From NCBI RefSeq assembly GCF_900460315.1, contig NZ_UHIO01000001.1, positions 1,517,501 through 1,581,500 on the forward strand: 64,000 nucleotides of DNA. The letters run 5' to 3'. The translations under genes were made by a program, and so were the position numbers. The stretch is from Veillonella criceti. GTDB lineage: Bacteria; Bacillota; Negativicutes; Veillonellales; Veillonellaceae. Of this stretch, positions 5,229 to 47,915 are shown in pieces; position 1 is the first letter of the stretch; each line of letters starts with the position of its first letter. A model generated the notes under the pieces. It did not search any database. It saw only the letters and a program-made list of their open reading frames with translations, and was not told where the DNA came from.

Positions 5229-5310
5229 ATGGACTCAGCAACAAATTAATCCTATATCAAGATATCTAATACAAAATCGTTAGACATCCATTGTGTAGTC
5301 AATAATTTGT

Positions 5311-5480: not shown

Positions 5481-5482
5481 TC

Positions 5483-5512
5483 ATTATAAAGTTAGCAATA
5501 GTATATTATCAA
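5483..5512 (-). promoter_or_regulatory. Promoter of the B12-riboswitch operon
   Basis: On the minus strand, TTGATA (5512-5507), an 18-base spacer and TATAAT (5488-5483). Transcription would begin a few bases before the aptamer, as expected. Confidence 0.65.
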
Positions 5513-27669: not shown

Positions 27670-27746
27670 TGGTGCGCCTAGGCGGAATCGAACCACCGAC
27701 ACGCAGTTTAGGAAACTGCTGCTCTATCCTACTGAGCTATAGACGC
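27670..27746 (-). tRNA. tRNA-Arg (anticodon CCU)
   Basis: 77 bases with encoded CCA. The acceptor stem GCGTCTA pairs with TAGGCGC (one G-U), the D arm has AGCTCAGTAGGATAGAGC, the anticodon stem GCAGT/ACTGC holds the loop TTCCTAA with anticodon CCU, and the T arm is GGTGGTTCGATTCCGCC. It reads the rare AGG codon. It has its own promoter and terminator. Confidence 0.97.
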
Positions 27747-27817: not shown

Positions 27818-27846
27818 ATTATAAACGGAATGCTCACATATCGCAA
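27818..27846 (-). promoter_or_regulatory. Promoter of tRNA-Arg
   Basis: Minus strand: TTGCGA (27846-27841), 17-base spacer, TATAAT (27823-27818). The DnaA-box cluster lies immediately upstream. Confidence 0.75.
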
Positions 27847-27850
27847 TATC

Positions 27851-27988
27851 AGTGGATATATCCTCTATTCACAAAAACTTATACACAGAGTTATCCACTA
27901 ATTTATTCACTTATCCACCTTTTTACATAACTTACACACAAGCTATACACAATATATCCACAGAATTTTGTGTATATTCTGTGGATAT
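27851..27988. promoter_or_regulatory. Dense cluster of DnaA-box-like 9-mers
   Basis: About eleven matches or near matches to TTATCCACA, on either strand, in 138 bases. Examples are AGTGGATAT 27851, CTATTCACA 27865, TTATACACA 27879, TTATCCACT 27891, TTATTCACT 27903, TTATCCACC 27911, TTACACACA 27932, CTATACACA 27943, ATATCCACA 27954, TGTGTATAT 27969 and TGTGGATAT 27980. The density equals that of the gaps flanking dnaA, but it sits about 17 kb away, between a 105-aa hypothetical gene and the tRNA-Arg promoter. Confidence 0.75.
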
Positions 27989-28062
27989 ATTCGTAAATAT
28001 GTATCAAGTTTTAATCTATCCCCGTGTATAACGTGTTTCAAGTAAAGCTAACCACAACGTTT

Positions 28063-28380
28063 TTATTCGGGAAAATACATAGTGTCATCAATTTCAATAG
28101 GACGGCTCCAATCAACTTGTACGTCCGTACGACCCCACATAACAGTTAAAGCAAGTTTCAAGTCAGCTAATGAGGCTAAGGGATCAACTGTAACTGTTTC
28201 ATAAGTGTCTAAACCTGTAGCCTTTTCTATGGTTTGAGGCGTATGTAAATACTCCCAAACTTTTTGTTGCCATTCTTCGGCAGGTAATACGACAGTTACC
28301 TCATGATTTACCTTGTTATATCCGATATATCCTTTTTCATCCACCCCATAATGGATGGCATAGTATGCTATGTCACTCAT
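28063..28380 (-). CDS. Hypothetical protein, 105 aa
   Basis: A small, acidic, soluble protein with AAAGGAGCAAGTACA ahead of its ATG, so very likely translated. It is rich in tryptophan (four, including EEWQQKVWEYL and VMWGRTDVQVDW) and tyrosine, with no cysteine, signal peptide or membrane span. I do not recognise a family. It is a separate transcription unit from the RND pump (147-base gap), and its 3' end runs into the DnaA-box cluster; a functional link is not shown. Confidence 0.75.
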   Translation of the reverse strand: MSDIAYYAIHYGVDEKGYIGYNKVNHEVTVVLPAEEWQQKVWEYLHTPQTIEKATGLDTYETVTVDPLASLADLKLALTVMWGRTDVQVDWSRPIEIDDTMYFPE

Positions 28381-28526
28381 TGTACTTGCTCCTTTACATT
28401 ATTATTGGCACTTACTCTTTTCCTATTTAACCACATCTAGACCTATCTATGCAATGCTATTTGATTAAATTTTATCGTATTAATCGTAAAATTACCAGTA
28501 AAAATTCACAATTATGAATAAATGCA

Positions 28527-31500
28527 TTACTTAGGTTCCGCCTTATAATACACCGCATACATAATTGGCAGCACAATTAAGGTTAGAATAGTTGCCACTA
28601 ATAAACCACCACTGAACGCGATAGCCATAGGTGACCAGAAAGCACTACTCATTAATGGCACCATCCCTAAAATAGCCGCTAAGGCTGTTAGCATAATAGG
28701 TCTAAATCGCAAGATAGTTGAACTAATAATCGCTTCATAAGTACTTTGTCCTTCACGACGATGTAATTCAATCTGGTCAATCAAGATAATCGAGTTACGG
28801 ATAATCATCCCACTTAAGGAAATCACACCTAATACAACCATAAAGCCCATTGGCGTATTAGTTAAGAGCATTGTTAATACAACCCCAATTAGACCAAGTG
28901 GAGCCGTTAATAATGCCATTAACATAAGTGGAATCTTTTTCAATTGGAACATTAAAATCGTCATAATTAAACAAAGCATAATAGGCATTGGCGCTTTTAA
29001 ATTATCCATAGCAATATTACTACGTTCTGCGGAACCGTCTACCTCAATGGTATAACCAGCTGGTAATGTTTCACGAACCGTATCTAATTTCTTATTTAAA
29101 TCATTAGCCAATGAATTGGCCATAACTGTAGGTGGTACATTGCCATGAACGGTAATGGTCGGTTCCATATTACGACGCCAAATAATTCCATCTTCATTGC
29201 CTAAGGAAATCGTTGCAATCTGACTTAATGGCACATAGGCGCCTGAACCTGTTTGAATAGGAATATTCTGTAACACACTCATATTATGTTCTTCATTGCC
29301 ACTCAATTTAAATTTCATTGGAATCGTCTGATTGCCTACATAATATTGTCCTACGGTTACACCTGAAATTTTACCTTGCAAATCAGTAGCTACTGAATAA
29401 CTATCAACCCCCATCAAACGTGCTTTAGCCGGATCTATTTGCACTTGAATGGTTGGTGTATTATCTGGCCAATCTTCAGAAATATCCGTTATATCTGAAT
29501 ACGTTTTAAATACATCCTTAACTTCATTAGCTATTTCTTTTACTTTTACCGTATCTGGCCCTGAAACACGGAACATAATTGGATATTTAGAAGGTGGTCC
29601 TGTTTGTAAAAACGTCATATTAATTAAAGCTGAAGGAAAGGTATCATTCAAAGTTTCTTGTAATTCTGTATATAACTCATTTCTATCTTCTAATGAATTA
29701 GCTACAATCACATATTGCATAAAATTATTACGCTCTACTTCAGGATCTAACGTAAGAATAAAACGTGGGGCCCCTTCACCAATATGTGCTGAATAATGAT
29801 TAATTCGTTTATCACCACTCAATAAGGAGTCTAACGTTTCAGCTTGTTCTTTAGTATATTGTAAGGAAGCACTTTGAGGAAACTGCACTGACACCATAAT
29901 TTCAGGCCGTGTAGAAGCTGGGAAAAATTCAACTTTAATTAAAGGCACACTAATTAAAGATACAACAAATAAAACGACTGTTGTAATTAAAACAATTTTA
30001 CGATGCCCCATAGCCCAATGTAGAAACTTTTCAAAGCGTTGTAAAAAAGCTTTTTGTACGCGTACGGCTTTAGTTTCTGCATGATTTTCTTTAATGCGTA
30101 TTAAGCGACTCCCCAAAACAGGACTGACCAAGACCGACGCAAACCAAGATAATAACAATGCCATCGCTACTACAATAAATAAGGAATGGGTAAATTCAGC
30201 GACTGAACCTTCCGATAAAAAGATTGGTAAAAATCCTGCACAAGTAATCAACGTGCCACTAAGCATTGGAAAGGCTGTTGATGTATAAGCAAAGGTAGCT
30301 GCTGAATGCGTATCTAAGCCTTCTTCCATCTTAAGCGTCATCATTTCTACAACGATAATCGCATCGTCTACGAGAAGACCTAAGGAAATAATCAAAGCCC
30401 CTAAACTAACTTTATGTAAATCAAGACCATCAGCATACATCCCTACAAACGTAGTGGCTACAACTACAGGAATCGTTAAGGCTACCACAAGGCCACTGCG
30501 TACACCTAAAGAAATAAAACTTACCACTAATACAATCGCTATCGCTTCAAATAGTGAACGCGTAAATTCACTAATCGACTCATCTACGACTTTTGGCTGA
30601 TTTGATACTTGATCAATCTGTAAGCCAACTGGTAATTCTCCTTGATACGAATCAAGTTTAGCCTGTAAAGCTTTACCAAATTCAATATTATTAGCCCCTG
30701 GATCCATTGATACAGCAATACCAATAGCTGGTTTACCATTAAAATAAAATAATGGACTTTCTGGTTCCCCATAATCGAGACGAACCGTAGCCATATCCCC
30801 TAAACGAAGCGTTTGCCCGTTTACCTGTAGTGGCATTTCACGAACAGACTCAACACTGTCAAAGAGGCCATTCACACGAAGATATACATTATTGGTATCC
30901 GTATCAATCATGCCGGCTGGTGCCATCGAACTTTGCTGTTTTAATGCATTTAAAATGGATTCACTACTTATATGATACGATGCCAACTTATCTTTATCCA
31001 TTTCTACATATAAAGTTTGTTGTTGAACCCCTTTTAAATCAATACGTTTAACATTAGGGACTGTTAATAATACACGCTTAATTTGTTCGGCATAGGCACG
31101 TTTTTCTTCATAGGAATAATCTTCCCCTGTTAGCGCATAAATCGTACCATACACATCATCAAAACGGTCATTAATAATTGGTCCCTGTACACCAGATGGC
31201 AATTTTGGCCATTCATCATTCACCATATGACGCACTTCTGTCCAAGCAGCTCGTACTTGTTCATCAGGTAAATTTTCTTTTAAATTAATATAAATAACTG
31301 TTTTGCTACCATCAGTAAAACTTTTTGTATAATCAAGACCTGGTAAATCACGGATTTTTTCTTCCAATTTATCCGTTACTTGCTCCGACATTTGGGCTGG
31401 CGAGGCCCCTGGCCAAGTAGCAGCCACAACCATGGTACGAATGGTAAAATTAGGATCTTCCATGCGACCAATTTTCATAAACGAAAACGTACCTATCGCA

Positions 31501-31574
31501 AAGAGCATAGCAATAAAGAAATAGATAATCGATTTATGTCGTAAAGCCCAATCAGCTAAATTAAAATTACTCAT
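28527..31574 (-). CDS. RND efflux transporter permease, AcrB/MexB-type
   Basis: Inner-membrane proton-driven drug/solute exporter, 1015 aa. It has 12 spans in two repeats with large periplasmic loops. The proton-relay aspartates are visible in SLGLLVDDAIIVVEMM (about residues 390-405), and repeat two carries ISLSGMIIRNSIILIDQIELH. It is a hydrophobe/amphiphile-type member. The start overlaps the adaptor stop by four bases (ATGA). No TolC-type outer-membrane channel gene is adjacent, so one is presumably elsewhere. Its presence implies an outer membrane. Confidence 0.95.
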   Translation of the reverse strand: MSNFNLADWALRHKSIIYFFIAMLFAIGTFSFMKIGRMEDPNFTIRTMVVAATWPGASPAQMSEQVTDKLEEKIRDLPGLDYTKSFTDGSKTVIYINLKENLPDEQVRAAWTEVRHMVNDEWPKLPSGVQGPIINDRFDDVYGTIYALTGEDYSYEEKRAYAEQIKRVLLTVPNVKRIDLKGVQQQTLYVEMDKDKLASYHISSESILNALKQQSSMAPAGMIDTDTNNVYLRVNGLFDSVESVREMPLQVNGQTLRLGDMATVRLDYGEPESPLFYFNGKPAIGIAVSMDPGANNIEFGKALQAKLDSYQGELPVGLQIDQVSNQPKVVDESISEFTRSLFEAIAIVLVVSFISLGVRSGLVVALTIPVVVATTFVGMYADGLDLHKVSLGALIISLGLLVDDAIIVVEMMTLKMEEGLDTHSAATFAYTSTAFPMLSGTLITCAGFLPIFLSEGSVAEFTHSLFIVVAMALLLSWFASVLVSPVLGSRLIRIKENHAETKAVRVQKAFLQRFEKFLHWAMGHRKIVLITTVVLFVVSLISVPLIKVEFFPASTRPEIMVSVQFPQSASLQYTKEQAETLDSLLSGDKRINHYSAHIGEGAPRFILTLDPEVERNNFMQYVIVANSLEDRNELYTELQETLNDTFPSALINMTFLQTGPPSKYPIMFRVSGPDTVKVKEIANEVKDVFKTYSDITDISEDWPDNTPTIQVQIDPAKARLMGVDSYSVATDLQGKISGVTVGQYYVGNQTIPMKFKLSGNEEHNMSVLQNIPIQTGSGAYVPLSQIATISLGNEDGIIWRRNMEPTITVHGNVPPTVMANSLANDLNKKLDTVRETLPAGYTIEVDGSAERSNIAMDNLKAPMPIMLCLIMTILMFQLKKIPLMLMALLTAPLGLIGVVLTMLLTNTPMGFMVVLGVISLSGMIIRNSIILIDQIELHRREGQSTYEAIISSTILRFRPIMLTALAAILGMVPLMSSAFWSPMAIAFSGGLLVATILTLIVLPIMYAVYYKAEPK

Positions 31575-32662
31575 ACTCGTACCTTAGCCCCTTCTTCTAA
31601 TTTATCAGTACCAGCTGTTACAATACGATCACCAGACTGTAAGCCAGAAGTTACCTGCACACTATTCGCTCCCATAGGGCCTAAGGTAACAGATATTAAT
31701 TTAACAGTATGTTCTTTAGTTACTACATACACTTGCCCTTTACCATTCTGTTTAGGGTCACGAGTACCTACTAAGGCAGTCAAAGGAACTTCTATAGCTT
31801 GTCCATTAGATTGATTAAAAGCTACATTGGCCGTCATTCCTAGCTGCAATTGCGTTGGTCGATTTGACAAAGCAACTTTTACAGTATATGTACGTGCTGT
31901 TGCATCAGGCACTGGTGAAATTTCACGAATAATCCCCTTAGTTATTACATTTGGCAAAGCCCAATACGTTACATTTGCTTCGGTACCTACTTGTACGGAC
32001 GCCATCATCTGTTCTGGCAAGGAAATCACCGCTTCAGGTTCATCACCTACAGCAATCATACCAACCGTTTGACCGGCACCTACCACTTGCCCTACTTCAA
32101 TCGTACTCGCTGTAATAATCCCATCAGCTGGTGCAACAAGTTGCGTATAATTTTGCTGGTTTTCACTCGTCTGTACATTAGCTTGTGCTTGTGCCAATTG
32201 AGCTGCCGCTACTTTATACGAATTTTCCATCTGATCTAATTGTAATTGACTCACTGCTTCCTGTGCATAGAGTACACGATATCGTTCTACATTCGTCGCC
32301 GCTAATTCATATTGAGATTGAGCCGCTGCTAAGGCGCCTTGTGCATTCTGCAATTGACTACTCGTATCACCTTGATTTAACACAGCCAATATTTGGCCAG
32401 CACTCACTCTATCGCCTACATTAAAATTCTTTTGAATAACACGTCCACCAATTTGAAAGGATAAAGCTGTTTCATAACGGTTTTTTATAGTACCTGATAA
32501 GCTATTTTCATTGCTAGCCGATTCTTTACCGACTACCATCGTTTTAACCAGTGGTGCTTGTTCCTTTGTTTTAGAATCACTACCACAACCACTAATAAAA
32601 GCTAAACAGCTTATCATTAATACACAAAAAATCATATGTTTACTTCTAAGGGAAGACCACAT
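31571..32662 (-). CDS. RND efflux periplasmic adaptor (membrane fusion) lipoprotein
   Basis: 363 aa. The signal peptide ends with lipobox ISGC (cysteine about residue 26), so it is lipid-anchored in the inner membrane. Then come the barrel-sandwich (lipoyl) half, a helical hairpin at about residues 105-170 (alanine/glutamine-rich: AQGALAAAQSQYELAATNVE), the second lipoyl half VAPADGIITAS, and the beta-barrel domain. It bridges the RND permease to an outer-membrane channel. AAGGAGG lies ahead of the start. Confidence 0.93.
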   Translation of the reverse strand: MWSSLRSKHMIFCVLMISCLAFISGCGSDSKTKEQAPLVKTMVVGKESASNENSLSGTIKNRYETALSFQIGGRVIQKNFNVGDRVSAGQILAVLNQGDTSSQLQNAQGALAAAQSQYELAATNVERYRVLYAQEAVSQLQLDQMENSYKVAAAQLAQAQANVQTSENQQNYTQLVAPADGIITASTIEVGQVVGAGQTVGMIAVGDEPEAVISLPEQMMASVQVGTEANVTYWALPNVITKGIIREISPVPDATARTYTVKVALSNRPTQLQLGMTANVAFNQSNGQAIEVPLTALVGTRDPKQNGKGQVYVVTKEHTVKLISVTLGPMGANSVQVTSGLQSGDRIVTAGTDKLEEGAKVRV

Positions 32663-32751
32663 AATAAACCTCCTTATAGAGACTGTATCATTAGAACTTT
32701 AACCAACTTTGCTACTTTTAACTTTATTACTTTTATTATATAATAGACACC

Positions 32752-33741
32752 TTATTTTTCAATGGAAACTAATACTTTTCCATGTAAGCCACCTTTTTTT
32801 ACTTTAATGAAAGCGGTTTCACTAGCCTCTAAAGGATATATACTATCAATAGCTGGTTTATAATCAGATTGTAAAAGAATAGCCAATGTGTCTTGTAATT
32901 GCTCACCATTTGGTGCTACCCACATGAATTCATAAGTTTGCTTTCTTTTTCTAGCCCTTCTACGAACACCATACGATGCAAGAGCTAAAATCCATTGACG
33001 CCACCAACTCAAGCCTAATGATTTAGCAAAATCAGCCGTAGGCATCCCTTTTAAAGTCAGTACTTTACCATTGATTTTAACTAATTGTTGTACTACGTTA
33101 GTAGTATTGCCTCCAACCATATCAACGCCATAATCAACTACCTCTTCAATTTGTATAGCTTCTTTACTTTTATAATCAAATACTCTGTTTGCACCGAGTT
33201 GTAAAATATTAGAGGCTTCTTTCTGATTACCGCTTACATACATTGTTAAGCCTTTGTGTTTACCCAAAAGAACTAACATAGCACCAACAGCACCAGTACC
33301 ACCGGCTATAAATATAGTTTCGCCCTTTTTACATTGCAATTTTTCTAAAATTTGAGCCGCTGTTAATAAAGCTACCGATAAGGTAGCACCATCTTGTTCA
33401 CTCAAATTTTTGGGTAAGAGCGTAATAGCACTGGAAGGAACTGCTATGTATTCAGCTAAGGTCCCTTCCCAAGCCCCCATCACGACGTCACCAATTTCAA
33501 AGTCAGTAACAAGATGACCTTTAGCTACAACTGTGCCTACCATTTCAGCTCCTAGGGTATACGGTAATTGAATTGGCTTTATAATATTAATCGTTCCTTC
33601 TGCAAATAAATTATCCACTGGATTAACACCAACATAGGATACGTTGATAAGAACTTCATGCTCTTTAGGTTCTGGTTTTGCTATATTATTGATTGTAATT
33701 TGAGGTTCTTTTCCTTGTTTAACAATTTGTACGGCTTTCAT
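32752..33741 (-). CDS. Quinone oxidoreductase-like MDR-family NADP-dependent dehydrogenase
   Basis: 329 aa, zinc-independent medium-chain dehydrogenase/reductase. The catalytic domain starts MKAVQIVKQGKEPQITINNIAKPEP and includes VGVNPVDNLF. The Rossmann motif AGGTGAVGAMLVLLG is at about residues 145-159. No structural-zinc cysteine cluster is present. It lies 41 bases after an Rrf2-type regulator on the same strand, so it is probably under that regulator. The substrate is likely a reactive carbonyl or quinone, by family analogy. Confidence 0.87.
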   Translation of the reverse strand: MKAVQIVKQGKEPQITINNIAKPEPKEHEVLINVSYVGVNPVDNLFAEGTINIIKPIQLPYTLGAEMVGTVVAKGHLVTDFEIGDVVMGAWEGTLAEYIAVPSSAITLLPKNLSEQDGATLSVALLTAAQILEKLQCKKGETIFIAGGTGAVGAMLVLLGKHKGLTMYVSGNQKEASNILQLGANRVFDYKSKEAIQIEEVVDYGVDMVGGNTTNVVQQLVKINGKVLTLKGMPTADFAKSLGLSWWRQWILALASYGVRRRARKRKQTYEFMWVAPNGEQLQDTLAILLQSDYKPAIDSIYPLEASETAFIKVKKGGLHGKVLVSIEK

Positions 33742-33782
33742 ATAATCGACTCCTTATTAATCCTTTATTAATCACTTATTTA

Positions 33783-34244
33783 TTACTTAATAACTATATT
33801 TTTTATTATTTCTGGATTATATTGTTCAATATGATTACGCATTCTATGAATCACATCGGCTAATGATGTCTGTTCTAATTTTTCTCTTACTAACTTATTA
33901 CATTCGGCTAACAAATCTTCTAGCGTAGGTCTAATAAACTGACCTACTATACACTGATCATTAGCATTAGTATGGATATCCCAAATATATAGAGTATCCG
34001 TACCTTGTATAGCCTTATAAATTTGCCACAAAGTAAGTTCTGCTTTAGGTACAGCTAACTGAATCCCTACTTTACCTTGCTGACTACAAATAATGTTTTG
34101 TTTTTTTAATAGAGCTAAAATCTTACGAATATAGCTAGCATTTTTATTAACACTTCGACCAATTTGTTCTGACGTTAAATCCTTTGGTCCCTCTGAAATC
34201 ATAATCAACATATGAATAGCTACAGAAAATTTTACATCTAACAT
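33783..34244 (-). CDS. Rrf2-family transcriptional regulator
   Basis: 153 aa. The winged-helix start MLDVKFSVAIHMLIMISEG and the helix LTSEQIGRSVNKNASYIRKILALLKKQNII are typical of Rrf2 proteins. The three closely spaced cysteines that hold an Fe-S cluster in IscR/NsrR are absent; the cysteines are far apart (SQQ-flanked C, DQC, AEC). It therefore looks like a YwnA-type thiol or ligand sensor. It directly precedes the dehydrogenase gene, its probable target. Confidence 0.88.
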   Translation of the reverse strand: MLDVKFSVAIHMLIMISEGPKDLTSEQIGRSVNKNASYIRKILALLKKQNIICSQQGKVGIQLAVPKAELTLWQIYKAIQGTDTLYIWDIHTNANDQCIVGQFIRPTLEDLLAECNKLVREKLEQTSLADVIHRMRNHIEQYNPEIIKNIVIK

Positions 34245-34373
34245 AATAACTCCTTTAACATATTAGATAGCCATTTAAGTATATATATTTCTATCTAACA
34301 CAATACTTGTATCAATATCTAATACAACTATTATATCATAGATTAACTGTAAATCTTTAGACTCATAAAAAAT

Positions 34374-34418
34374 AAAATCCCCATAGCTCATTTTCTTCAA
34401 TGAACTATGAGGATTTTT
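34374..34418 (-). terminator. Terminator of the CBS-domain membrane protein gene
   Basis: AAAATCCTCATAGTTCA pairs with TGAGCTATGGGGATTTT on the minus strand, ending in a U-run. Confidence 0.87.
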
Positions 34419-34453
34419 ATTATATGTGTAATATTTTATAACTACTTTATAAC

Positions 34454-35821
34454 TTAACTATCTTTATTTTCATCTGTTACTTCATCTATAACAGGTTCAT
34501 GGGTCACCATAATTTTATCAATACGAACATTGTCCATATCGACAATTTCAAAGGTGTAATCCTCCCATACATAGCGTTCTAGCTCTTTAGGGATACGACC
34601 GAATAAATACATAAGAAAACCACCGACTGTTTTGTATAAATCTTCATCTTCACCAGGTAATTCCTTTGTAATATTAAAATAGTCTTTAAATTCGTCAATA
34701 CTCAATAAGCCATCCACTAACCAAGTCGTATCACTACGTTGAATCACACGATTTTCTTCTTCTTTTAATTCATCTTCACTAGCAGGCATTAATCCCACTA
34801 ATTTTTCCATAATATCGTGTAAAGTTACCAAGCCACTAAAACCACCATACTCATCAAGTACGACTGTTTCATGAACCCCTTCCGTACGAAATACCTCTAA
34901 TAATTTCATCAAGCTAATAGATTCCGGTACCATTACAGGTTGCTTAGTACAAGTTTCCACTAATTCTTTTAGCGTTTTATGACCATTTTGCTTCATGTGT
35001 TCAGCAAAAACATCGGCTACCACTACTAAGCCTTCTAATTCATCTAAGGAATCTCGCCCTACTGGTAATCGATAATGTGTCGAATGACATAATCGTTCTT
35101 TAATCTCTTCTTCGGGACTATTCAAATCTAACCATTTTAGCTGTGTTCGCGGTGTCATTACATCACCAGCATTCAAATCAGCCAAGCGAAAGACATTATC
35201 TACTAAACGAGGTTCGTCCTTTTCAAAAGCACCTAGTTCTACACCTTGAGTTAGCATTTTATTAATTTCTAATTCAGTCACCGGTGCTTCTTCTTTATCT
35301 TTTACACCCATAACTTTTAATAAAGACGTCGTTGAAACGCTCAGTAAAGCTACTAATGGAGTTGCAACTACAGCAAAATAATGCATAGGTACGGCCATGA
35401 AAATAGCAATTTTTTCTGGTGCATTAAGGGCTAAGCGCTTTGGCACTAATTCACCAATAACCAAGGATAAATATGTTGTTAAAGATACAATAATTATGGG
35501 ACTTACTGAATCAGCATAACTAGCCAACGTAGGTATATATTCTTTAATAACTTTAGCCATCGGTTCTGATAAAGCCGCCCCTGAATACAAACCAGTAACA
35601 ATACCAATTAAAGTAATACCAATTTGTATCGTTGAAAACATTTGATTAGGATCTTCCGATAATTGAATAGCCCGTTGAGCTCCTTTACTGCCTTTTTCAG
35701 CACTATCTTCTAATAAACCTTTACGAGCATTAACAATAGCTAATTCAGTCATTGAAAAAATCCCATTGGCTATAATCAATAATAAAATTATAAGTATCTC
35801 CAGACCTACATCACCATCCAC
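34454..35821 (-). CDS. CNNM/CorC-type membrane protein (DUF21, CBS pair, CorC domain)
   Basis: 455 aa. DUF21 with four hydrophobic spans (about residues 5-190), a CBS pair at about 215-335 (DVMTPRTQLKWLD; DEYGGFSGLVTLHDIMEKLVG) and a C-terminal CorC/HlyC domain. Relatives are implicated in magnesium or cobalt efflux. The start is a GTG with AGGAG twelve bases away, longer than usual; no better start is visible in frame. It stands alone between terminators. Confidence 0.87.
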   Translation of the reverse strand: MDGDVGLEILIILLLIIANGIFSMTELAIVNARKGLLEDSAEKGSKGAQRAIQLSEDPNQMFSTIQIGITLIGIVTGLYSGAALSEPMAKVIKEYIPTLASYADSVSPIIIVSLTTYLSLVIGELVPKRLALNAPEKIAIFMAVPMHYFAVVATPLVALLSVSTTSLLKVMGVKDKEEAPVTELEINKMLTQGVELGAFEKDEPRLVDNVFRLADLNAGDVMTPRTQLKWLDLNSPEEEIKERLCHSTHYRLPVGRDSLDELEGLVVVADVFAEHMKQNGHKTLKELVETCTKQPVMVPESISLMKLLEVFRTEGVHETVVLDEYGGFSGLVTLHDIMEKLVGLMPASEDELKEEENRVIQRSDTTWLVDGLLSIDEFKDYFNITKELPGEDEDLYKTVGGFLMYLFGRIPKELERYVWEDYTFEIVDMDNVRIDKIMVTHEPVIDEVTDENKDS

Positions 35822-35976
35822 TGATTTATCACTCTCCTCTTACTTCAAGTGGATACATTATATAATATGTACTATACAATACTACAAGTACACATGGTAT
35901 ATAGACAACCTATATACTTACCGTATAGTATACCAAAATCTACTATATTTCGCTATGAGTAATCGTAGTTTATAAA

Positions 35977-36021
35977 ATAAGCCTTACCAGACTTTGATTT
36001 ATAAAGTCATAGTAAGGCTTA
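35977..36021 (-). terminator. Terminator of the Dxs-like gene
   Basis: ATAAGCCTTACTATGACTTTAT pairs with ATAAATCAAAGTCTGGTAAGGCTTAT as a near-perfect stem on the minus strand. Confidence 0.85.
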
Positions 36022-36085
36022 TATTTTAATTTCATATGCTAGGTTTTATATTCTTTAATTTTTTTATGCTAGACTCTGAGTTTTC

Positions 36086-37837
36086 TTATTTATTTAAAAT
36101 CGCTTTAATATCTTCTACGATTAATTCAGGAGATAAATGATAACGAGCTACTAATTCTTTCATTGGTACACGATCATTTACTTCTTTTTTCATACCAATC
36201 GTCAATACTTTTACATCAGTTGGCCCATAGAAACGAGCTACTTTTTCACCAAAACCACCGTCTAATACGCCATCTTCTAGCGTAACTACTAAACTATGAT
36301 TTGCTTTTAAACTTTCCAAAGTTGCTTCATCTACTTCAGAAGATAAACGAGGGTTCACTAAGGTTGCTTCAATGCCTAACTGCGCTTGTAATGCTTCTTT
36401 AGTACGTAAACCTAAGTCATAGAAAGCACCAAGACCTAAAATGGCTACCGTATTCCCTTGAGCTGTGACTTCATTTGTCAAAGTTCCTATAAAAGCTTTA
36501 CCCGCTTCATACGTCTGAACCTTACCACCTGGTACACGAATCATAACAGGCATGTCAGTCTGTTCTAACGACCAATCTAACATAGCGATTAATTCTTCCT
36601 TAGTCGCTGGTGATAAAACGCGTAAATTAGGAATATTATTCATCATAGCCATATCAAAGGCACTAGAATGAGTTGCATCCATCGATGAAATGCCACCACC
36701 TAGTGGGAAGGATATAATCGTTGCTGGATTACTATTTAAAGCTAAGTCTTGTGTCAATTGGTCATAGGTACGTTGTAAGAAAGTACCTGCATCTAAAATC
36801 ACTGGTTTAGCTCCATTTTTAGCAAGACCTGCCGCCATAGCTACCATATGTTCTTCAGCAATCCCTACATCAATAAACTGCTTACCGGCTTCTGCACGAC
36901 GTTCTGCACTAAAACCAGCAATGCCAGGTACACCAGCTGTTAAACCAACTACTGTTTTATCAGCTTTCATTTTTGCTAACAAGTGAGTAGCAATAATTTC
37001 ATCGTAATGATCTTCTTTCATATAGGCATCAACATCAAAATCTTTCCCCATAATATAATGATAGGATTCTTTATCTGCTTCCGCTGCTGGTAAGCCTTTA
37101 CCTTTTACAGTAACTACATGAAGGACAACAGGATGATTAGTATCTTTAACCGCTTTAAAAACTTCAATCAAATCATCTAAATTATGACCATCTTCAATAA
37201 ATACATAGTCAAGGCCCATAGCTTTGAAGAAGTTATTGCTAGCCTTACCTTTACTATCTCGTAATTCTTTTAAATGTGGATATAAACCGCCTTCATTAGG
37301 TGCAATCGACATATCATTATCGTTAAATAAAACGATAAAATTACTCCCCAATGTAGCACTTACATTAAGCCCTTCCATAGCTTCGCCACCAGATAAAGAA
37401 CCATCACCTAAAATAGCCACTACATTACCCGTTTCACCTTTTAAATCGCGAGCTTTAGCTAAGCCAGAGGCTAGACTAACTGCAGTAGATGTATGACCAA
37501 TAGTAAAGAAATCATGTTCACTTTCATTAGGGTTGGTATAGCCTGAATATTTTGTATAAGACGCTGGGTCAGTAAAGGCTTCTTTACGACCAGTCAACAT
37601 TTTATGAATATAGGATTGATGGGATACATCAAATACAAATTTATCTTTTGGTGAATCAAATACATAATGTAGAGCTAACGTAGCTTCTACAAACCCAAGA
37701 TTTGGTGCCATATGACCACCAGTAGCTGTAACCCGTGTAATTAACACATCACGAATTTCTTGGGCTAATGTTTTTAATTCTTCAATACTCATTCCTTTAA
37801 TATCTTTTGGGGCCTTAATTGTGTCTAATAAACTCAT
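36086..37837 (-). CDS. 1-Deoxy-D-xylulose-5-phosphate synthase-like ThDP enzyme
   Basis: 583 aa transketolase-fold enzyme with Dxs-type features: GGHMAPNLGFVEATLALHYVF near residues 41-61, the thiamine-diphosphate motif GDGSLSGGEAMEGLN..NDNDMSI around 145-180, and the catalytic EEHMVAMAAGLA in the pyrimidine domain. It is about 40 residues short of usual Dxs and several normally invariant stretches differ: DVSHQSYIHK for DVGHQxYPHK, GHTSTAVSLA for GHSSTSISA. It may be a divergent Dxs paralogue with another role. Single gene with its own terminator. Confidence 0.75.
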   Translation of the reverse strand: MSLLDTIKAPKDIKGMSIEELKTLAQEIRDVLITRVTATGGHMAPNLGFVEATLALHYVFDSPKDKFVFDVSHQSYIHKMLTGRKEAFTDPASYTKYSGYTNPNESEHDFFTIGHTSTAVSLASGLAKARDLKGETGNVVAILGDGSLSGGEAMEGLNVSATLGSNFIVLFNDNDMSIAPNEGGLYPHLKELRDSKGKASNNFFKAMGLDYVFIEDGHNLDDLIEVFKAVKDTNHPVVLHVVTVKGKGLPAAEADKESYHYIMGKDFDVDAYMKEDHYDEIIATHLLAKMKADKTVVGLTAGVPGIAGFSAERRAEAGKQFIDVGIAEEHMVAMAAGLAKNGAKPVILDAGTFLQRTYDQLTQDLALNSNPATIISFPLGGGISSMDATHSSAFDMAMMNNIPNLRVLSPATKEELIAMLDWSLEQTDMPVMIRVPGGKVQTYEAGKAFIGTLTNEVTAQGNTVAILGLGAFYDLGLRTKEALQAQLGIEATLVNPRLSSEVDEATLESLKANHSLVVTLEDGVLDGGFGEKVARFYGPTDVKVLTIGMKKEVNDRVPMKELVARYHLSPELIVEDIKAILNK

Positions 37838-37914
37838 ACAATTTTCCTTTCCATACTATCATATATGTTCTAATTGATGATAACCTATGAATCATCAAAA
37901 AAACTAGTTATATA

Positions 37915-37965
37915 AAAATTCCGCAATCTTAAGTAAATATCTTGCTTACTTAAGACTACGGAATT
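37915..37965 (-). terminator. Terminator after the LysP-like gene
   Basis: AATTCCGTAGTCTTAAGTAA pairs with TTACTTAAGATTGCGGAATT on the minus strand; T-rich sequence follows. Confidence 0.88.
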
Positions 37966-38007
37966 CATTATAAAGCTTGAAGTCAACTTCAAGTCAAGTA
38001 TTAAATT

Positions 38008-39459
38008 TTATTTTTCATAATCTCGTTCTAGATTTACTTCTTTTAGTGGAATAACATGTGTCTTATTTTTAGCTTTATAGCTTGCATAAACTAATAAGAA
38101 TACAGGAATACCAATATAAGCTACACTAGCCCCATACCAGTCAATTGTATCGCCAGTAAAAGCTGTATAGTTTTGACCAGCAATAATGATTAAACAAAGT
38201 ATCATGGCAAAAATAGGACCAAATGGGAAGAACAAGGCTTTAAATGGAATAGAATCTAAGCTCTTACCTTGTTCGTGGAAAGCACGACGGAAACGATAAT
38301 GGGCAATAGCAATCCCAAGCCACGCAATAAAACCACTCATACCACTGATATTAATTAACCAGTTATACGCTGTCCCTTCACCAATTAAAGAGGTTAAAAA
38401 GGCAAATACACCAAACGCAGCTGTTGCCAATAAAGCAGGTACTGGTACACCACGAGAATTTAATTTTGTAAAAATCTGAGGTGCATCCCCCTCTTTAGCC
38501 ATGGCATATAACATACGAGTTGAGGCATATAAACCAGAGTTACCGGCTGATAAAACAGCAGTCAAAATGATGGCATTAATAAAGCTCGCTGCAAAAGCAA
38601 AACCAAAACGATCCAATACTAATGTAAATGGACTAATGGCAATATTTTCTACACTAGCATTCAATAAATTAGGATCATCGTAAGGAATTAAGAACCCAAT
38701 AACAGCAAAGGCACCAATATAGAACAATAAAATACGCCAGAAAATAGAGTGAATGGCTTTTGGAATATTCTTTTCAGGATCTTCTGATTCACCGGCTGCT
38801 ACCCCAATTAATTCTGTCCCTTGGAACGAGAAACCAGCTACCATAAAGATAGCTAAAATAGAGCCAAAGCCACCAACAAAAGGAGCTTCGCCACGAGTCC
38901 AGTTTTCAAAGCCTGGCGAAGTGCCACCAATGCCTAAAATCAACATAGTCCCTACAAAAAGGAATACGAATACGGTAATAACCTTCATACTGGAGAAGAA
39001 ATATTCACTTTCCCCAAAGGAACGCGTTGATAAATAGTTCATTAAAAATAAAGCACATAAGAATAAGGCTGACCATACAATGGCTGGAATCTCTGGAAAC
39101 CAATATTTCATAATGAGAGCGCCTGCTACCAATTCTGCTGCCAAAGTAATGGCCCAGTTAAACCAATAATTCCAACCTAACGCAAAACCAAAGGCTGGAT
39201 CTACATACCGTGATGCATAGGTACCAAAAGAGCCTGGTACTGGTAAATAGGTGGCCATTTCACCAAGACTTGTCATCAAGAAATATACCATAATACCAAT
39301 AAAGCCATAGGCTACTAAGGCCCCACCAGGGCCGGCCGTACTAACGACTTCACCACCAGCAACAAATAAACCAGTCCCAATGGCTCCACCTAGTGCAATC
39401 ATATTCATATGACGCGATTTTAAACTTCTTTTTAATTTGTTATCCGCTTCATTACTCAC
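38008..39459 (-). CDS. Amino acid permease, LysP-like (APC family)
   Basis: 483 aa with 12 spans. It starts LKRSLKSRHMNMIALGGAIGTGLFVAGGE, the AAT/APC signature, and contains FQGTELIGVAAGESEDPEKNIPKAI. The resemblance is closest to LysP, the lysine-specific permease. The start is a GTG seven bases after GGGGGG. It lies only 16 bases after gyrB on the same strand with no hairpin, so it is likely cotranscribed, an uncommon neighbour for gyrB. gyrA is not in the window. Confidence 0.87.
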   Translation of the reverse strand: MSNEADNKLKRSLKSRHMNMIALGGAIGTGLFVAGGEVVSTAGPGGALVAYGFIGIMVYFLMTSLGEMATYLPVPGSFGTYASRYVDPAFGFALGWNYWFNWAITLAAELVAGALIMKYWFPEIPAIVWSALFLCALFLMNYLSTRSFGESEYFFSSMKVITVFVFLFVGTMLILGIGGTSPGFENWTRGEAPFVGGFGSILAIFMVAGFSFQGTELIGVAAGESEDPEKNIPKAIHSIFWRILLFYIGAFAVIGFLIPYDDPNLLNASVENIAISPFTLVLDRFGFAFAASFINAIILTAVLSAGNSGLYASTRMLYAMAKEGDAPQIFTKLNSRGVPVPALLATAAFGVFAFLTSLIGEGTAYNWLINISGMSGFIAWLGIAIAHYRFRRAFHEQGKSLDSIPFKALFFPFGPIFAMILCLIIIAGQNYTAFTGDTIDWYGASVAYIGIPVFLLVYASYKAKNKTHVIPLKEVNLERDYEK

Positions 39460-39475
39460 TAAACAGCCCCCCTTA

Positions 39476-41389
<1,914 letters not shown>

Positions 41390-41464
41390 CTATTTTAGTA
41401 GTAATTAACTATATATCGTTAAGATTCTCTTTTTTAAAGATTTACCCTTAATTATACTCTATTT

Positions 41465-41734
41465 TTATCGTTTTGTGTATAAGCTCACAGGAATTCCCGT
41501 TGTTGCACGCTGTAAACGACGTCCTACGCCTGTAATTGACATGCTTAATCCATAAATAGCATCTACGGTAACTAAATAACTTTCAATGGGTTCATCAGGA
41601 AATACATGAATCACTTCACTATTTTGCCACTGCTTATTACGCCGGCGACGCCCTTTTAGGAGCGGAATATCTTGTACTACCGCTACAATATCCTCAATAG
41701 ATACACTATACGTATCTGATAAATGTACAAACAT
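41465..41734 (-). CDS. remB: RemB/YaaB-like extracellular matrix regulator family protein
   Basis: 89 aa small protein. It resembles Bacillus YaaB/RemB (DUF370): MFVHLSDTYSVSIEDIVAVVQ at the start. It occupies the same place between recF and gyrB as yaaB does in Bacillus. RemA/RemB proteins influence biofilm matrix genes in Bacillus; the role here is untested. The ribosome-binding site is weak. About 40 bases separate it from the preceding dciA-like gene. Confidence 0.78.
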   Translation of the reverse strand: MFVHLSDTYSVSIEDIVAVVQDIPLLKGRRRRNKQWQNSEVIHVFPDEPIESYLVTVDAIYGLSMSITGVGRRLQRATTGIPVSLYTKR

Positions 41735-41774
41735 AGATCATTCCATCACTTTCTTAATTATAGGATTTCTTATT

Positions 41775-42836
41775 TTAATGACGTTCATAATGAGTGCGTT
41801 TTTGTTCATATTGAAAACGCATTTTTTTTATTGCATTTTGGACAAAGCCTTTATCTAATTGTTGTGCTTTTTTATGAGTAATCAACATAAGTAACATATA
41901 TATATCATAATTATCATCTGATGCTTCACGAATAACTCGATTTCTAAAAAAATACACGCACTCTCTGTGAGCTAACTGATAATCAGCCATAGCACAAGGT
42001 ATAATCAGCTTACATACATCATCATACACTAAGTATGGTTGTTCAAATAACAGAGTTTTAATTGCTTCAATACGCTGTCTATACTCATACTCAGCCTGTT
42101 CTTTAGCTTTTAAAGTACAAGCCATACACACTGTATCAGTTGGCCCTACTAAGGAATCACAATGAGCACATGGATGATAGCCATGCGCCTTTAAATACTT
42201 AGTTTTCTTATACTGTTTGATTTGCGCTTCTCTAAACGTTTCACGCATAGACGGTTCTGAAATATGGGTAACTACCTGTTCTATAGTGGCAAGTTCAGCT
42301 TCACTCAAAGAAATAGCCTCAAAATCTAATAGGGGTCGTTCATAAGTTTCCGTAGCCTGAGTTGCCCCATAAGCTAATACGCCCTCTTCTTTGATATAAC
42401 TTTGCTTATACATAGAAAGTTCTATATCCGTCATAAGAGTCTTTCCATAATATGCATTAATTTTTTGTAGCAATTGTCGTTTCATCATCTGCAATTGTTG
42501 CAAACAAGGGGAGTTTAAAGCGGCAACTTTTAAAATTGGTGGCTGTATCGCTAATAATCGAGTTTGTTTAGCCAGTAAAGGACCCACCACATTAGGCCAA
42601 TCTTGGTATAGACGCATAACAGCAAAGATTTGGAATACTTTAAACTGATTATACTTAGTCTTTAAATGGGGATCATATTGTGAAAGATATGTATCAGCTT
42701 TATAACCAACAGGTCCTGCTGATCGATGTGTATCAGTAATGGATGACACATACTCCATAACAGAATTAGTTTCTATTTGATTAGTAAAATCAGGATTTAT
42801 CTGTCGCTTATCAGTCTCCGACTCTTCGCTCTTCAT
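41775..42836 (-). CDS. dciA: DciA-like (DUF721) protein with zinc-ribbon C-terminal extension
   Basis: About 353 aa. The DUF721 core is near residues 60-130: MRLYQDWPNVVGPLLAKQTRLLAIQPPILKVAALNSPCLQQLQMMKRQLL. DciA proteins help load the replicative helicase, and the gene lies between recF and gyrB. It is two to three times the usual DciA length. A four-cysteine ribbon (CAHC..CMAC) sits near residues 222-241, followed by a helical, basic tail. I place the start at the ATG at 42836, after GGCGGTGAG; a GTG 18 bases upstream overlaps recF. Confidence 0.8.
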   Translation of the reverse strand: MKSEESETDKRQINPDFTNQIETNSVMEYVSSITDTHRSAGPVGYKADTYLSQYDPHLKTKYNQFKVFQIFAVMRLYQDWPNVVGPLLAKQTRLLAIQPPILKVAALNSPCLQQLQMMKRQLLQKINAYYGKTLMTDIELSMYKQSYIKEEGVLAYGATQATETYERPLLDFEAISLSEAELATIEQVVTHISEPSMRETFREAQIKQYKKTKYLKAHGYHPCAHCDSLVGPTDTVCMACTLKAKEQAEYEYRQRIEAIKTLLFEQPYLVYDDVCKLIIPCAMADYQLAHRECVYFFRNRVIREASDDNYDIYMLLMLITHKKAQQLDKGFVQNAIKKMRFQYEQKRTHYERH

Positions 42837-42840
42837 GGTC

Positions 42841-43917
42841 TCACCGCCTTTCACAATTGACTAACGCTACATCCGTTAAATGCTGCACTTCTTCTAAATC
42901 AGTCGTAGTAATAAAGGTTTGAATCCGCTTATGAATAAATTGTAATAAATTCTGTCGTCGTTCCTTATCAAGCTCACTTAAGACATCATCAAGCAATAAA
43001 ATAGGATATTCGCCCACTTCTGACTTAATATATTCTAATTCACTTAATTTAAGTGATAAAATAGCTGTTCGTTGTTGCCCTTGTGAACCAAATCGTTTTA
43101 AATCAATCGGCCCTGAAAAAAAGCCTAAATCATCACGATGAGGACCAAAGGATGTATTCATACGATGCCGATCAACAGCTAAATTAGCCTGTAATTGTTC
43201 ATAAAAAGCATCTGCTTCAGTTATATAAGCACCATTAGCTTGTTGTTGCTCATAGGTTAATTTTAAATTTTCCTTGCCACCAGTTAAACGACGATTCATT
43301 AAATCTAAGAGTAAATTAATCTTCCGTAAACTATCAAGCCGTTTTTTTATAATAAAAGAACCTGCTTCAGCTAATTGATAATCCCATTCAGCTAACGACA
43401 CCGTTGTCTTACCATAAGAATCTTTAAGCACTTTATTACGTTGTTGCAAAATTTTATTATACATTCTCAATTGCTGATAATATAAAGCACTGGTTTGTGA
43501 AATTTCAATATCTAAAAAGCGACGACGTAAGGATGGACTCCCCTTAATTAATTGTAAATCCTCGGGACTAAAAATGACCGTATTTAAGGTACCCATTAAT
43601 TCCTTTTGCAAAATACGATTTCCATTTAAGCGAATATCCTTTTTTTCCTTACCGCTTAAACGTAAATTAATTTTTTGCTTCGTCTCTTTTTTTATAAATT
43701 CTACAATAATGCCAGCTTCACTAGCCCCAAATTGTAATAAATCTTGTGTATCATTGGTACGATAACTTTTACCAATCGTACTGACATAAAGGGCTTCTAA
43801 CATATTACTTTTCCCTACCCCATTAGGGCCATAAAGAACAATAATATGTGGAGGAAATGTCCAACTAGCTTGTTTATAGTTACGAAAATTAACGAGCTCT
43901 AAAGAGTGAATATTCAC
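42841..43917 (-). CDS. recF: DNA replication/repair protein RecF
   Basis: 358 aa SMC-like ATPase that loads RecA at gaps. The start is NIHSLELVNFRNYKQASW; Walker A GPNGVGKSN is at about residues 30-38, and the signature and Walker B region is LLLDDVLSELDKERR near 302-316. The start codon is GTG; it overlaps the yaaA stop by four bases (GTGA). Order dnaA-dnaN-yaaA-recF is the standard Firmicutes one. Confidence 0.97.
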   Translation of the reverse strand: MNIHSLELVNFRNYKQASWTFPPHIIVLYGPNGVGKSNMLEALYVSTIGKSYRTNDTQDLLQFGASEAGIIVEFIKKETKQKINLRLSGKEKKDIRLNGNRILQKELMGTLNTVIFSPEDLQLIKGSPSLRRRFLDIEISQTSALYYQQLRMYNKILQQRNKVLKDSYGKTTVSLAEWDYQLAEAGSFIIKKRLDSLRKINLLLDLMNRRLTGGKENLKLTYEQQQANGAYITEADAFYEQLQANLAVDRHRMNTSFGPHRDDLGFFSGPIDLKRFGSQGQQRTAILSLKLSELEYIKSEVGEYPILLLDDVLSELDKERRQNLLQFIHKRIQTFITTTDLEEVQHLTDVALVNCERR

Positions 43918-44159
43918 TCGTCAGCCTCCTCTTTAACGACTAATAATGTGCCAATTCCTTGAATTTTTACAATATCATCAGGATAAATTTTCTTACGTTT
44001 TTCATGGCAAAGTTCACCATTAACCGTAATTTTTTCATCATCTAATAAAAACTTAACTTGCCCACCAGTTCCAATAATTTGTTCAAACTTTAATAATTGA
44101 TCTAATTTAATATACGGGGTATGAATTTCAACTTGAATTGGTTCCTCTTTCATTTTCAT
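43914..44159 (-). CDS. yaaA: S4-domain RNA-binding protein YaaA
   Basis: 81 aa single S4 domain: IKLDQLLKFEQIIGTGGQVKFLL then VNGELCHEKRKKIYPDDIV. It is the usual small gene between dnaN and recF; the family is thought to bind ribosomal RNA. The start is preceded by AGGAGGATCCT. It sits 21 bases after dnaN and overlaps recF by four bases. Confidence 0.93.
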   Translation of the reverse strand: MKMKEEPIQVEIHTPYIKLDQLLKFEQIIGTGGQVKFLLDDEKITVNGELCHEKRKKIYPDDIVKIQGIGTLLVVKEEADE

Positions 44160-44180
44160 AGGATCCTCCTAACTCAGTGC

Positions 44181-45290
44181 TTAATTAGTACGCACTGGTG
44201 TTACAACATAGGTATAATTTGGATTATCGTCTTGACGGATAACAACAGGACCATTTTGTTTTAAATACAAATGAATACGATCACCACTACTATGACGTAA
44301 AATATCACCAATATAACGGCCATTAAAGGAAATCGTAAATGGGGTGCCATTAAATTCACAAAGAACTTCTTCTTTAGCCATACCAATTTCAGCATTTTGT
44401 GTTGATAAGGTCACTTCTTTATCATTCCAATCATAGCGAATGACATTATAGCTAGCATCTTTAGCTAATAAAGATACACGATCAACAGCACCAGCAAAAT
44501 CCCGACTATTTAATATAGCATTGGAATCAAATTGAGAAGGAATTACTTTTTCATAATCAGGATATTGACCTTCTATTAAACGAGAGAATAAATAAATAGT
44601 ATCAAATAAGAAGACCACATTCGTACGATTCCAGATAATACGAACCATAGTTGGTTGATCTGTTGGCAATAAACGTGATACTTCCGCCAATGTTTTAGTA
44701 GGTATTAGAATACGCATAGCTGATGGCATAGCTTCTGATAAAGTAATTTTTTTTACGGCCATACGATGTGTATCTGTAGCCACCATGGTTAAATGAGTGC
44801 CTTCACCTTCTAATAAAGCACCTGTAAAAATAGGACGATCATCATCACTAGCGGCCGCATAGTTGGTCAAATCAATCATTTGCTTAAATTGTTCACCATC
44901 TACATCAATATGGTATTCATCATGAATTTGTTCTACCAAATTAAATTCACTAGGATCCATCATGATTAAGTTAAATTGCGAGCTTTCAGAACTGAGCAAT
45001 AATTGTTTAGTGTCTTCATTAGATTCTAAGGTAATCGTATCTGTTGGTGTTTTACGAACCCATTCTTGGAAGTAACGAGTACTCAATACGATAGTTCCTT
45101 CTTCAATAATATTGGCATCAATAGTAATGCGAATACCAATTTCATAATCATTGGCTTGCATTTCTACTTTACCATTTTTAGTTGTCATATAAATAGCACC
45201 TGGTAAATTGGAACTTGTTTTATTTTGACTTACCTTGGCTAATGCATTGAGTGCTTTTTGTAATGTGTCTTTTGAAAATTGAATTTTCAT
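44181..45290 (-). CDS. dnaN: DNA polymerase III beta subunit (sliding clamp)
   Basis: 369 aa, the standard length. Three clamp domains in tandem; the start MKIQFSKDTLQKALNALAKVSQNK, VATDTHRMAVKK and the C-terminal YVVTPVRTN are family landmarks. The clamp confers processivity on the replicative polymerase. AAAGGAGT precedes the ATG. The 252-base gap before it contains one of the DnaA-box sets. Confidence 0.98.
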   Translation of the reverse strand: MKIQFSKDTLQKALNALAKVSQNKTSSNLPGAIYMTTKNGKVEMQANDYEIGIRITIDANIIEEGTIVLSTRYFQEWVRKTPTDTITLESNEDTKQLLLSSESSQFNLIMMDPSEFNLVEQIHDEYHIDVDGEQFKQMIDLTNYAAASDDDRPIFTGALLEGEGTHLTMVATDTHRMAVKKITLSEAMPSAMRILIPTKTLAEVSRLLPTDQPTMVRIIWNRTNVVFLFDTIYLFSRLIEGQYPDYEKVIPSQFDSNAILNSRDFAGAVDRVSLLAKDASYNVIRYDWNDKEVTLSTQNAEIGMAKEEVLCEFNGTPFTISFNGRYIGDILRHSSGDRIHLYLKQNGPVVIRQDDNPNYTYVVTPVRTN

Positions 45291-45355
45291 AGGTACTCCT
45301 TTACTAATACTGATGTGATTAATTTTTAATTATTAGTAGTCTTAGTAGTAGGGAT

Positions 45356-45530
45356 GGTGGATAAGTGGATAAGTATTTGAAAGTAGCATTTTTATTAGGT
45401 TTTCCACATGCGTATAAGTATGTGAATGAAAATAAAAAGTTATCCACATATGAACTTAAATTTTCGTAACTGTTTAAAAGTTGGAAGTTAAACACAAATT
45501 ATAAACAGGTTATTCACAGAGTTATCCACA
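45356..45530. promoter_or_regulatory. DnaA-box set between dnaA and dnaN (part of bipartite origin)
   Basis: Six boxes in 175 bases: GGTGGATAA 45356, AGTGGATAA 45364, TTTTCCACA 45400, TTATCCACA 45440, TTATTCACA 45510, TTATCCACA 45522. Two are perfect consensus. It lies in the dnaA-dnaN gap, as in bipartite Firmicutes origins. Confidence 0.85.
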
Positions 45531-45542
45531 CCCTGAATCGTA

Positions 45543-47279: not shown

Positions 47280-47306
47280 ACCGTTTCCTTCCTAGGTGTA
47301 ACATAT

Positions 47307-47659
47307 TGTGAATAAGTGGATAACTAAAATACCTATAACTGTGCATAAGTTTTTTCTTTTTAGTAAAAAAAGAAAAATAAAAAGGTTAACACGTTAGATA
47401 AACACTGACTTTATACGTTGATTAGATTAAGTGTGGATAACAAGTGTATAAGTTGTGTATATCCTGTTGATAACCTGTGGTTAGATACTCACAATATGTT
47501 TTTCCTGTTTTATTTTGTCACTTAATATTTTATCAGAAAATAGCCACCTTGTCATTGCTAGTTGTGGATATCTTTATGGGGGACTGACGAGCACTAAAAA
47601 TAGTAGCTAATTGTATAAATGACTACTATATAAGGTATAATATAATAAAAGTATCCACA
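47307..47659. other. Probable replication origin (oriC) with DnaA boxes
   Basis: Ten or so DnaA-box-like 9-mers lie in the dnaA-rpmH gap: TGTGAATAA 47307, AGTGGATAA 47315, TGTGCATAA 47340, TGTGGATAA 47432, AGTGTATAA 47443, TGTGTATAT 47454, TGTTGATAA 47465, TGTGGTTAG 47476, TGTGGATAT 47563 and GTATCCACA 47651. Long AT-rich stretches (47500-47530, 47590-47690) are candidate unwinding elements. All genes to the left back to 24 kb are minus, all to the right are plus. Any dnaA promoter overlaps the leftmost boxes. Confidence 0.88.
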
Positions 47660-47696
47660 AAACGCTAAATAAAAAGGAAGATAAAGCACATTACTA

Positions 47697-47725
47697 TTGA
47701 CATTATAAGGGTTTATATTTATAAT
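47697..47725 (+). promoter_or_regulatory. Promoter of rpmH
   Basis: Perfect consensus: TTGACA (47697-47702), 17-base spacer, TATAAT (47720-47725). Confidence 0.92.
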
Positions 47726-47780
47726 TATGCTGTTATGGTATAAGTAATTACTAGACCAATCTCGAGGAGGTGTTTGATAC

Positions 47781-47915
47781 ATGAAACGTACATATCAGCC
47801 AAATACGCTTTGGAGAAAACGTACTCATGGTTTCCGTGAACGTATGAAGACTATTGGCGGTCGTCTTGTTTTGAAAAGACGTCGTGCTAAAGGCAGAAAG
47901 AAATTGTCTGCATAA
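47781..47915 (+). CDS. rpmH: 50S ribosomal protein L34
   Basis: 44 aa, normal length. [18 protein letters not shown] starts it and the arginine/lysine-rich [12 protein letters not shown] ends it. GAGGAGG lies ahead of the ATG. It is transcribed away from dnaA from a consensus promoter, the universal arrangement beside bacterial origins. A terminator between it and rnpA should keep L34 in excess of RnpA. Confidence 0.98.

Follow-up and report, generated by a model that had tools for sequence, protein, structure and literature searches.

A conserved DnaA-box cluster at the 3' end of a 105-aa protein gene in Negativicutes, a candidate DnaA control site outside the replication origin

The window, the whole stretch of DNA analysed here, covers 64,000 nucleotides of the Veillonella criceti genome, and positions are counted from its first letter. 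A cluster of DnaA-box-like 9-mers, found by box search and assessed by shuffling, occupies 27851-27988, between a gene for a 105-aa protein (28063-28380, minus strand; defined by family searches), whose 3' end faces it, and a tRNA-Arg(CCU) (27670-27746, minus strand; tRNA call). In this DNA of 30% GC, 11 of the 9-mers differ from TTATCCACA at no more than two positions; five of these are within one mismatch, and none is perfect. On the plus strand, the boxes at 27851, 27969 and 27980 read in reverse and those at 27865, 27879, 27891, 27903, 27911, 27932, 27943 and 27954 read forward, giving eight one way and three the opposite way. Two outlying boxes at 28023 and 28048 (28023-28056), with two mismatches each, are of doubtful membership. 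On the other side, four bases separate the last box from a promoter-like site of the tRNA, TTGCGA-17-TATAAT (27818-27846, minus strand), detected by motif scan and conserved in alignment. The origin region of the window comprises dnaN (44181-45290) and dnaA (45543-47279), together with rpmH and rnpA, around the GC-skew turn. A reading made beforehand from the sequence only had described about eleven boxes in 138 bases, the same two neighbours and a distance of about 17 kb to dnaA; the count is exactly 11, both neighbours are at the positions claimed, and the distance from 27988 to 45543 is 17.6 kb. Elsewhere, the window carries a cobalamin riboswitch (5298-5485, minus strand) and a SAM riboswitch (54591-54685, plus strand), both above the Rfam gathering scores.

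Dinucleotide shuffling of the 138 bp (n = 2000) never produced 11 boxes at up to two mismatches or five at up to one; the means were 1.1 and 0.13 boxes and the maxima five and two, respectively. When the whole window was shuffled (n = 100), the best 138-bp stretch held five and three boxes at these thresholds. Among 2000 letter-permuted motifs, only TTATCCACA reached 11 at up to two mismatches, and only one other motif joined it in reaching five at up to one. Genome-wide, 711 matches at up to one mismatch were counted, against 638 for a reversed control motif. A DNA search of the window genome found no second copy of the cluster, the matches being the cluster itself and its palindrome against itself.

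At the end towards the 105-aa gene, spacing scan and alignment define a convergent core (27943-27988, minus strand), which in gene sense reads >2>6<2<, the arrowheads giving box directions and the numbers the bp between boxes (at 27980, 27969, 27954 and 27943). Alignment and folding also reveal a perfect 16-bp inverted repeat (27951-27991), with arms at 27951-27966 and 27976-27991 and a 9-bp loop, holding the outer core boxes. As RNA, this repeat folds well, with z values of -7.2 in the window and -4.9 in V. ratti. In an alignment of six species the block of convergent boxes is nearly invariant, a constancy that the flank on the side of the 105-aa gene lacks. Two paired arm positions co-vary among these species, one from T-A to C-G, R32 being a broken intermediate, and the other from A-T to T-A. 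Since paired positions change together, it may be the symmetry that is conserved, whether in the DNA or in an RNA hairpin. The repeat was also considered as a terminator of the 105-aa gene and rejected, as it has no T-run and a terminator scan finds only one, after the tRNA.

In the window genus, the Veillonella ratti group (with V. intestinalis, V. sp. R32, V. ratti, V. seminalis, V. sp. KGMB01456 and V. magna), the 105-aa gene has the cluster at its 3' end in seven of seven genomes. The same holds for all four assessable g2 genomes (two more end at contig ends), for the single g3 genome and for three of three in the Megasphaera family, genomes of one genus not being independent in these counts. 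The V. parvula group departs from this pattern: none of its 13 loci (L009, L015-L018 and L020-L027) has the cluster at the 105-aa gene, and in nine named loci the tRNA-Arg is still found downstream of that gene. The sequence-only reading had singled out the orthologous gap of close relatives as the place where chance would show itself by missing boxes; the cluster is kept there, the V. parvula group being the exception. The 105-aa gene lies 16-17 kb from dnaA in six genomes of the window genus (the seventh has them on separate contigs), 11 kb in two g2 genomes and 37 kb in g3. The distance to dnaA grows to 52-191 kb in five Megasphaera-family genomes and to about 410 kb and 450 kb in G063 and G159, and it is 81-131 kb in five V. 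parvula-group genomes, taken as circular single contigs.

The 105-aa gene occurs in 43 of 60 relatives and its family in 251 of 300 Negativicutes. For the class as a whole, 40 gene-anchored loci were hand-picked, about one per genus, among the gene-positive genomes listed (251 positive overall), and the criterion for a cluster was three or more boxes, each with no more than one mismatch, inside 300 bp at the gene's 3' end. Outside family f14 (Selenomonadaceae), 19 of 25 loci from 11 families carry it, five of the 19 at 53-60% GC, and only two of 918 control windows elsewhere in the 40 loci pass the same criterion. In f14, which takes in Schwartzia, Pectinatus and Mitsuokella contigs, no cluster was found at the 3' end of the gene in any of 15 loci. 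The pairing can also be loosened: in L193 (Schwartzia) the cluster stands 5.6 kb beyond the 105-aa gene, in L180 it stands 8.5 kb beyond, adjoining tRNA-Arg(ACG), and in L116-L118 cluster and tRNA-Arg are present and the 105-aa gene was not found in the sequence retrieved. The three elements can thus be separated from one another, and the pairing of gene and cluster is common.

With triples of two tandem boxes and one opposing box denoted by their two spacings, a >3>13< core (3/13; up to three mismatches in all) is found in 15 of the 40 loci, from eleven families, and each of the 109 other spacing combinations is found once or never. The remainder of the same loci yielded 3/13 once and 3/14 once (gaps of 2-4 bp tested). 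Eight of the 40 loci (G063, G071, G082, G120, G152, G169, G208 and G218) were already matches of a pattern search; three of them are within the 15, the other 12 coming from the 32 loci that this search had not seen. Outside Veillonellales, the class core measures 43 bp, its boxes beginning at 0, 12 and 34, and one idea is that the 13-bp gap would fit an extra 9-mer with 2-bp gaps. Veillonellales have shorter spacings. At up to four mismatches in all, the 2/6 triple of the window genus occurs in seven of seven genomes, 3/4 in four of four g2 genomes, 3/3 in g3, 2/5 in two Megasphaera-family loci, 2/3 in six loci and 2/17 in seven; at up to three mismatches, 2/6 and 3/4 occur in four loci each of 20. 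The spacing is not unique in the window genus, because the same clusters also give 2/17 at up to four mismatches. Lacking the 3/13 core, the window genus therefore matches the class by the place of its core, not by exact geometry. In family f18, loci L103, L105 and L107 have triples with 3 and 5 bp and one box opposed, which is the spacing of the DARS sites of E. coli.

The pattern search looked for a tandem pair of boxes and then one in the opposite direction, and matched 43 of 300 Negativicutes; the reversed control pattern had no match among the genomes listed. Among 30 pattern loci, 12 have the 105-aa gene, 11 have a tRNA-Arg (anticodon ACG or CCU), and none has dnaA, dnaN, rpmH or rnpA, a test that found dnaA and dnaN in 15 of 15 oriC loci as a positive check. 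In the single-contig genome G076, two 43-bp cores flank dnaA at about 210 and 325 kb (L112, at G076:C1:210648, and G076:C1:2374909), with a 105-aa gene match near the second only. Phylum-wide, the 43-bp pattern was met in 12 of 398 genomes, ten of them outside Negativicutes and eight of those ten in family f46, and no dnaA, dnaN or tRNA was found in these 12 stretches. The f46 loci (L208-L215, outside the class) are possibly an independent candidate DnaA site.

Regarding the 105-aa protein, its family has no match in Pfam, NCBIfam or PHROGs. The predicted structure is a confident alpha/beta model (pLDDT 94.9), with no Foldseek match in the PDB at E <= 0.001 and, over 989 chains, no VIA match at Z >= 5; missing relatives of a predicted fold do not prove that the fold is new.

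Among the ways to explain the cluster, AT-rich chance is extremely improbable. The low GC content of the stretch would suit it, but it is contradicted by the shuffles, the permuted motifs, the fixed spacing, the conservation in loci of 53-60% GC, and the presence of the cluster at the same gene throughout the window genus and in further Negativicutes. A second or bipartite origin element, one of the roles first proposed, would find some support in box density. The sequence-only reading had put the cluster on a par with the origin, and with 8.0 boxes per 100 bp it is in fact denser than both oriC sets (4.4 and 2.0), though with weaker matches. Set 1, between dnaN and dnaA (45291-45542, 252 bp), holds 11 boxes at up to two mismatches, two of them perfect, and set 2, upstream of dnaA (47280-47781, 502 bp), holds 10 with one perfect, so that of the roughly six and ten boxes announced for these sets the ten stood and the six had to be raised to 11. 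Against an origin element, the cluster has no perfect box, and the cumulative GC skew of the window has its minimum at 45200, inside dnaN beside dnaA, and does not turn at 27.9 kb, which makes an extra origin unlikely. Furthermore, the class-wide core is missing from 30 dnaA loci: at up to three mismatches, triples 3/13, 3/5, 2/6 and 2/5 were found in none of them and 3/4 in two, both from g2, the commonest being 3/2 (9 of 30), with some of these loci beginning at a contig start and thus covering one side of oriC only. The core geometries 3/13 and 2/6 differ from those of oriC. Given the skew and the absence of the class core from the dnaA loci, the origin element was dropped as very improbable. 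DnaA might instead act as a transcription factor or roadblock on the tRNA-Arg promoter or on read-through from the 105-aa gene, and local effects on the tRNA are possible, because only four bases lie between the last box and the -35-like hexamer of its promoter. The order of gene, cluster and tRNA on one strand is shared by many loci, and an interplay of tRNA read-through and DnaA roadblocks is described for E. coli datA in the part of PMC10950094 drawn on here. We nevertheless consider such a role improbable, as tRNA-Arg lies within 600 bp in just seven of 19 cluster-positive loci; among five Megasphaera-family loci, four have no tRNA-Arg over about 8 kb and the fifth has it at 3.1 kb; the tRNA of V. 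magna (L008) is about 170 bp past the last box; and the V. parvula group has the tRNA without the cluster. The suggestion that the site ties rare-codon tRNA supply to initiation is weakened likewise, because the cluster persists without a neighbouring tRNA in the Megasphaera loci, as far as the sequence was read, and the nine V. parvula-group loci keep the tRNA and lack the cluster.

We therefore think it rather probable that the cluster is a conserved DnaA control site outside the origin, probably restraining initiation, with DnaA binding deduced from the boxes. Opposing boxes, constant spacing and a conserved place speak for one defined DnaA complex and against a scatter of sites. Of the three roles offered at the outset, the non-origin class of datA and DARS is thus the best supported, by the conserved cluster, its place and its spacing, and the extra origin falls away. 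In the proposed mechanism, DnaA would bind the convergent core as a defined complex and from there would spread onto the weak boxes nearby, many of which are separated by 2-3 bp; weak boxes at such distances are described as favouring cooperative head-to-tail DnaA oligomers (PMC8682772, consulted in part). Near oriC, as in this genus, the site would be duplicated soon after initiation, as is datA in E. coli according to the portion of PMC5742627 used. Early copying would let it lower free or ATP-bound DnaA, by titration or by datA-like inactivation, and so delay the next round. The negative sign of the effect is our choice, as the DARS-like opposing boxes are also compatible with reactivation. 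Some observations weigh against this explanation. The V. parvula group (0 of 13) and f14 (0 of 15) do without the cluster at that place, a sink for titration would not need fixed spacing, the 3/4 spacing of g2 occurs in the oriC of g2 itself, and the role of early duplication is weakened because outside Veillonellaceae the cluster can be far from dnaA. Reactivation would work the other way: ADP-DnaA on the opposing core boxes would meet head to head, lose ADP, leave ready to take up ATP and promote initiation, which we regard as unlikely but as the main rival. As in DARS (PMC5742627, seen in part), the core has three boxes, one opposite to two, and opposing DARS boxes are described as supporting head-to-head DnaA contact that promotes ADP release (PMC8682772, in the excerpt used). 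The class core is built in this way too, its spacings being 3 and 13 bp, and the 2/5 of two Megasphaera-family loci, the 2/6 of the window genus and the 3/5 of f18 come close to or equal the E. coli spacing. However, most families (with 13 bp) and the window (with 2/6) have spacings unlike 5/3, the f18 loci were selected by a pattern permitting that spacing, and a scan at up to four mismatches recovers DARS1 and misses DARS2. Moreover, both sites are distant from oriC in E. coli, DARS1 being at 0.81 Mb, DARS2 at 2.97 Mb and oriC at 3.92 Mb.

Returning to a DnaA control site that restrains initiation, the site was probably inherited from an early Negativicutes ancestor, and the cluster is probably an old switch that helps to set the timing of chromosome copying. 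A bolder version, speculative and rather unlikely, would make it an ancestral Negativicutes element that reactivates or inactivates DnaA through the 43-bp convergent core, a nucleotide-switch site outside Proteobacteria, with the 105-aa protein acting with it on DnaA.

DnaA sites away from the origin have been explained in E. coli, and in B. subtilis the understanding is partial. No published description of a DnaA-box cluster in Negativicutes was found in a literature search that was thin in subscription papers. The site is a class-wide version of a known kind of element. Its conservation with fixed geometry in a class of Bacillota makes it testable whether a switch like DARS or datA arose or survived outside Proteobacteria. 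This testability is helped by the fact that Selenomonadaceae and the V. parvula group naturally lack the cluster at that place, the latter offering a natural comparison that has the 105-aa gene without the cluster. It is also helped by the window genome, in which no YabA match was found.

Among known systems, DARS1 and DARS2 of E. coli K-12, between bioD and uvrB and between rppH and mutH, respectively, both read >5<3<. The window cluster shares with them a three-box core with one box opposed (>2>6< in the window, >3>13< in the class) at fixed spacing. The DARS sites have one spacing in common, box I standing opposite II and III (PMC5742627, in the part drawn on), and its 5 and 3 bp are found neither in the window (6 and 2) nor in most core families (13 and 3), where extra boxes also surround the core. 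Like E. coli datA, the cluster is a non-coding group of boxes by tRNA genes (glyV-X-Y in E. coli) on the oriC side of the chromosome. It may differ from datA in having boxes both ways, as the essential boxes of datA run in one direction and are accompanied by an IHF site (PMC5742627, same part); the window genome has one PF00216 gene, of the HU/IHF family and either HU or IHF. Transcription also differs, running from the tRNA genes into datA in E. coli (PMC10950094, as excerpted) and away from the cluster in the window. As regards B. subtilis, its DBCs are box clusters outside the origin, which the window cluster also is, near oriC in this genus. What sets it apart from the DBCs as described in the available part of PMC5295017 is the attachment to one gene family class-wide, often with a fixed-spacing core. 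According to the same part of that source, DnaA control rests on nucleotide state in E. coli and on oligomer formation in B. subtilis; cells without six DBCs initiate early, the effect being strong only when all six are removed, and clusters with significant roles are not identified there. E. coli also concentrates DnaA boxes near oriC (PMC12371093, consulted in part), and this high-density region resembles the cluster in having boxes on the oriC side that are copied early; it is a broad regional enrichment, unlike the one compact conserved element described here. Under the best reading of these likenesses, the window cluster would be DARS-like in the arrangement of its boxes and datA- or DBC-like in its position.
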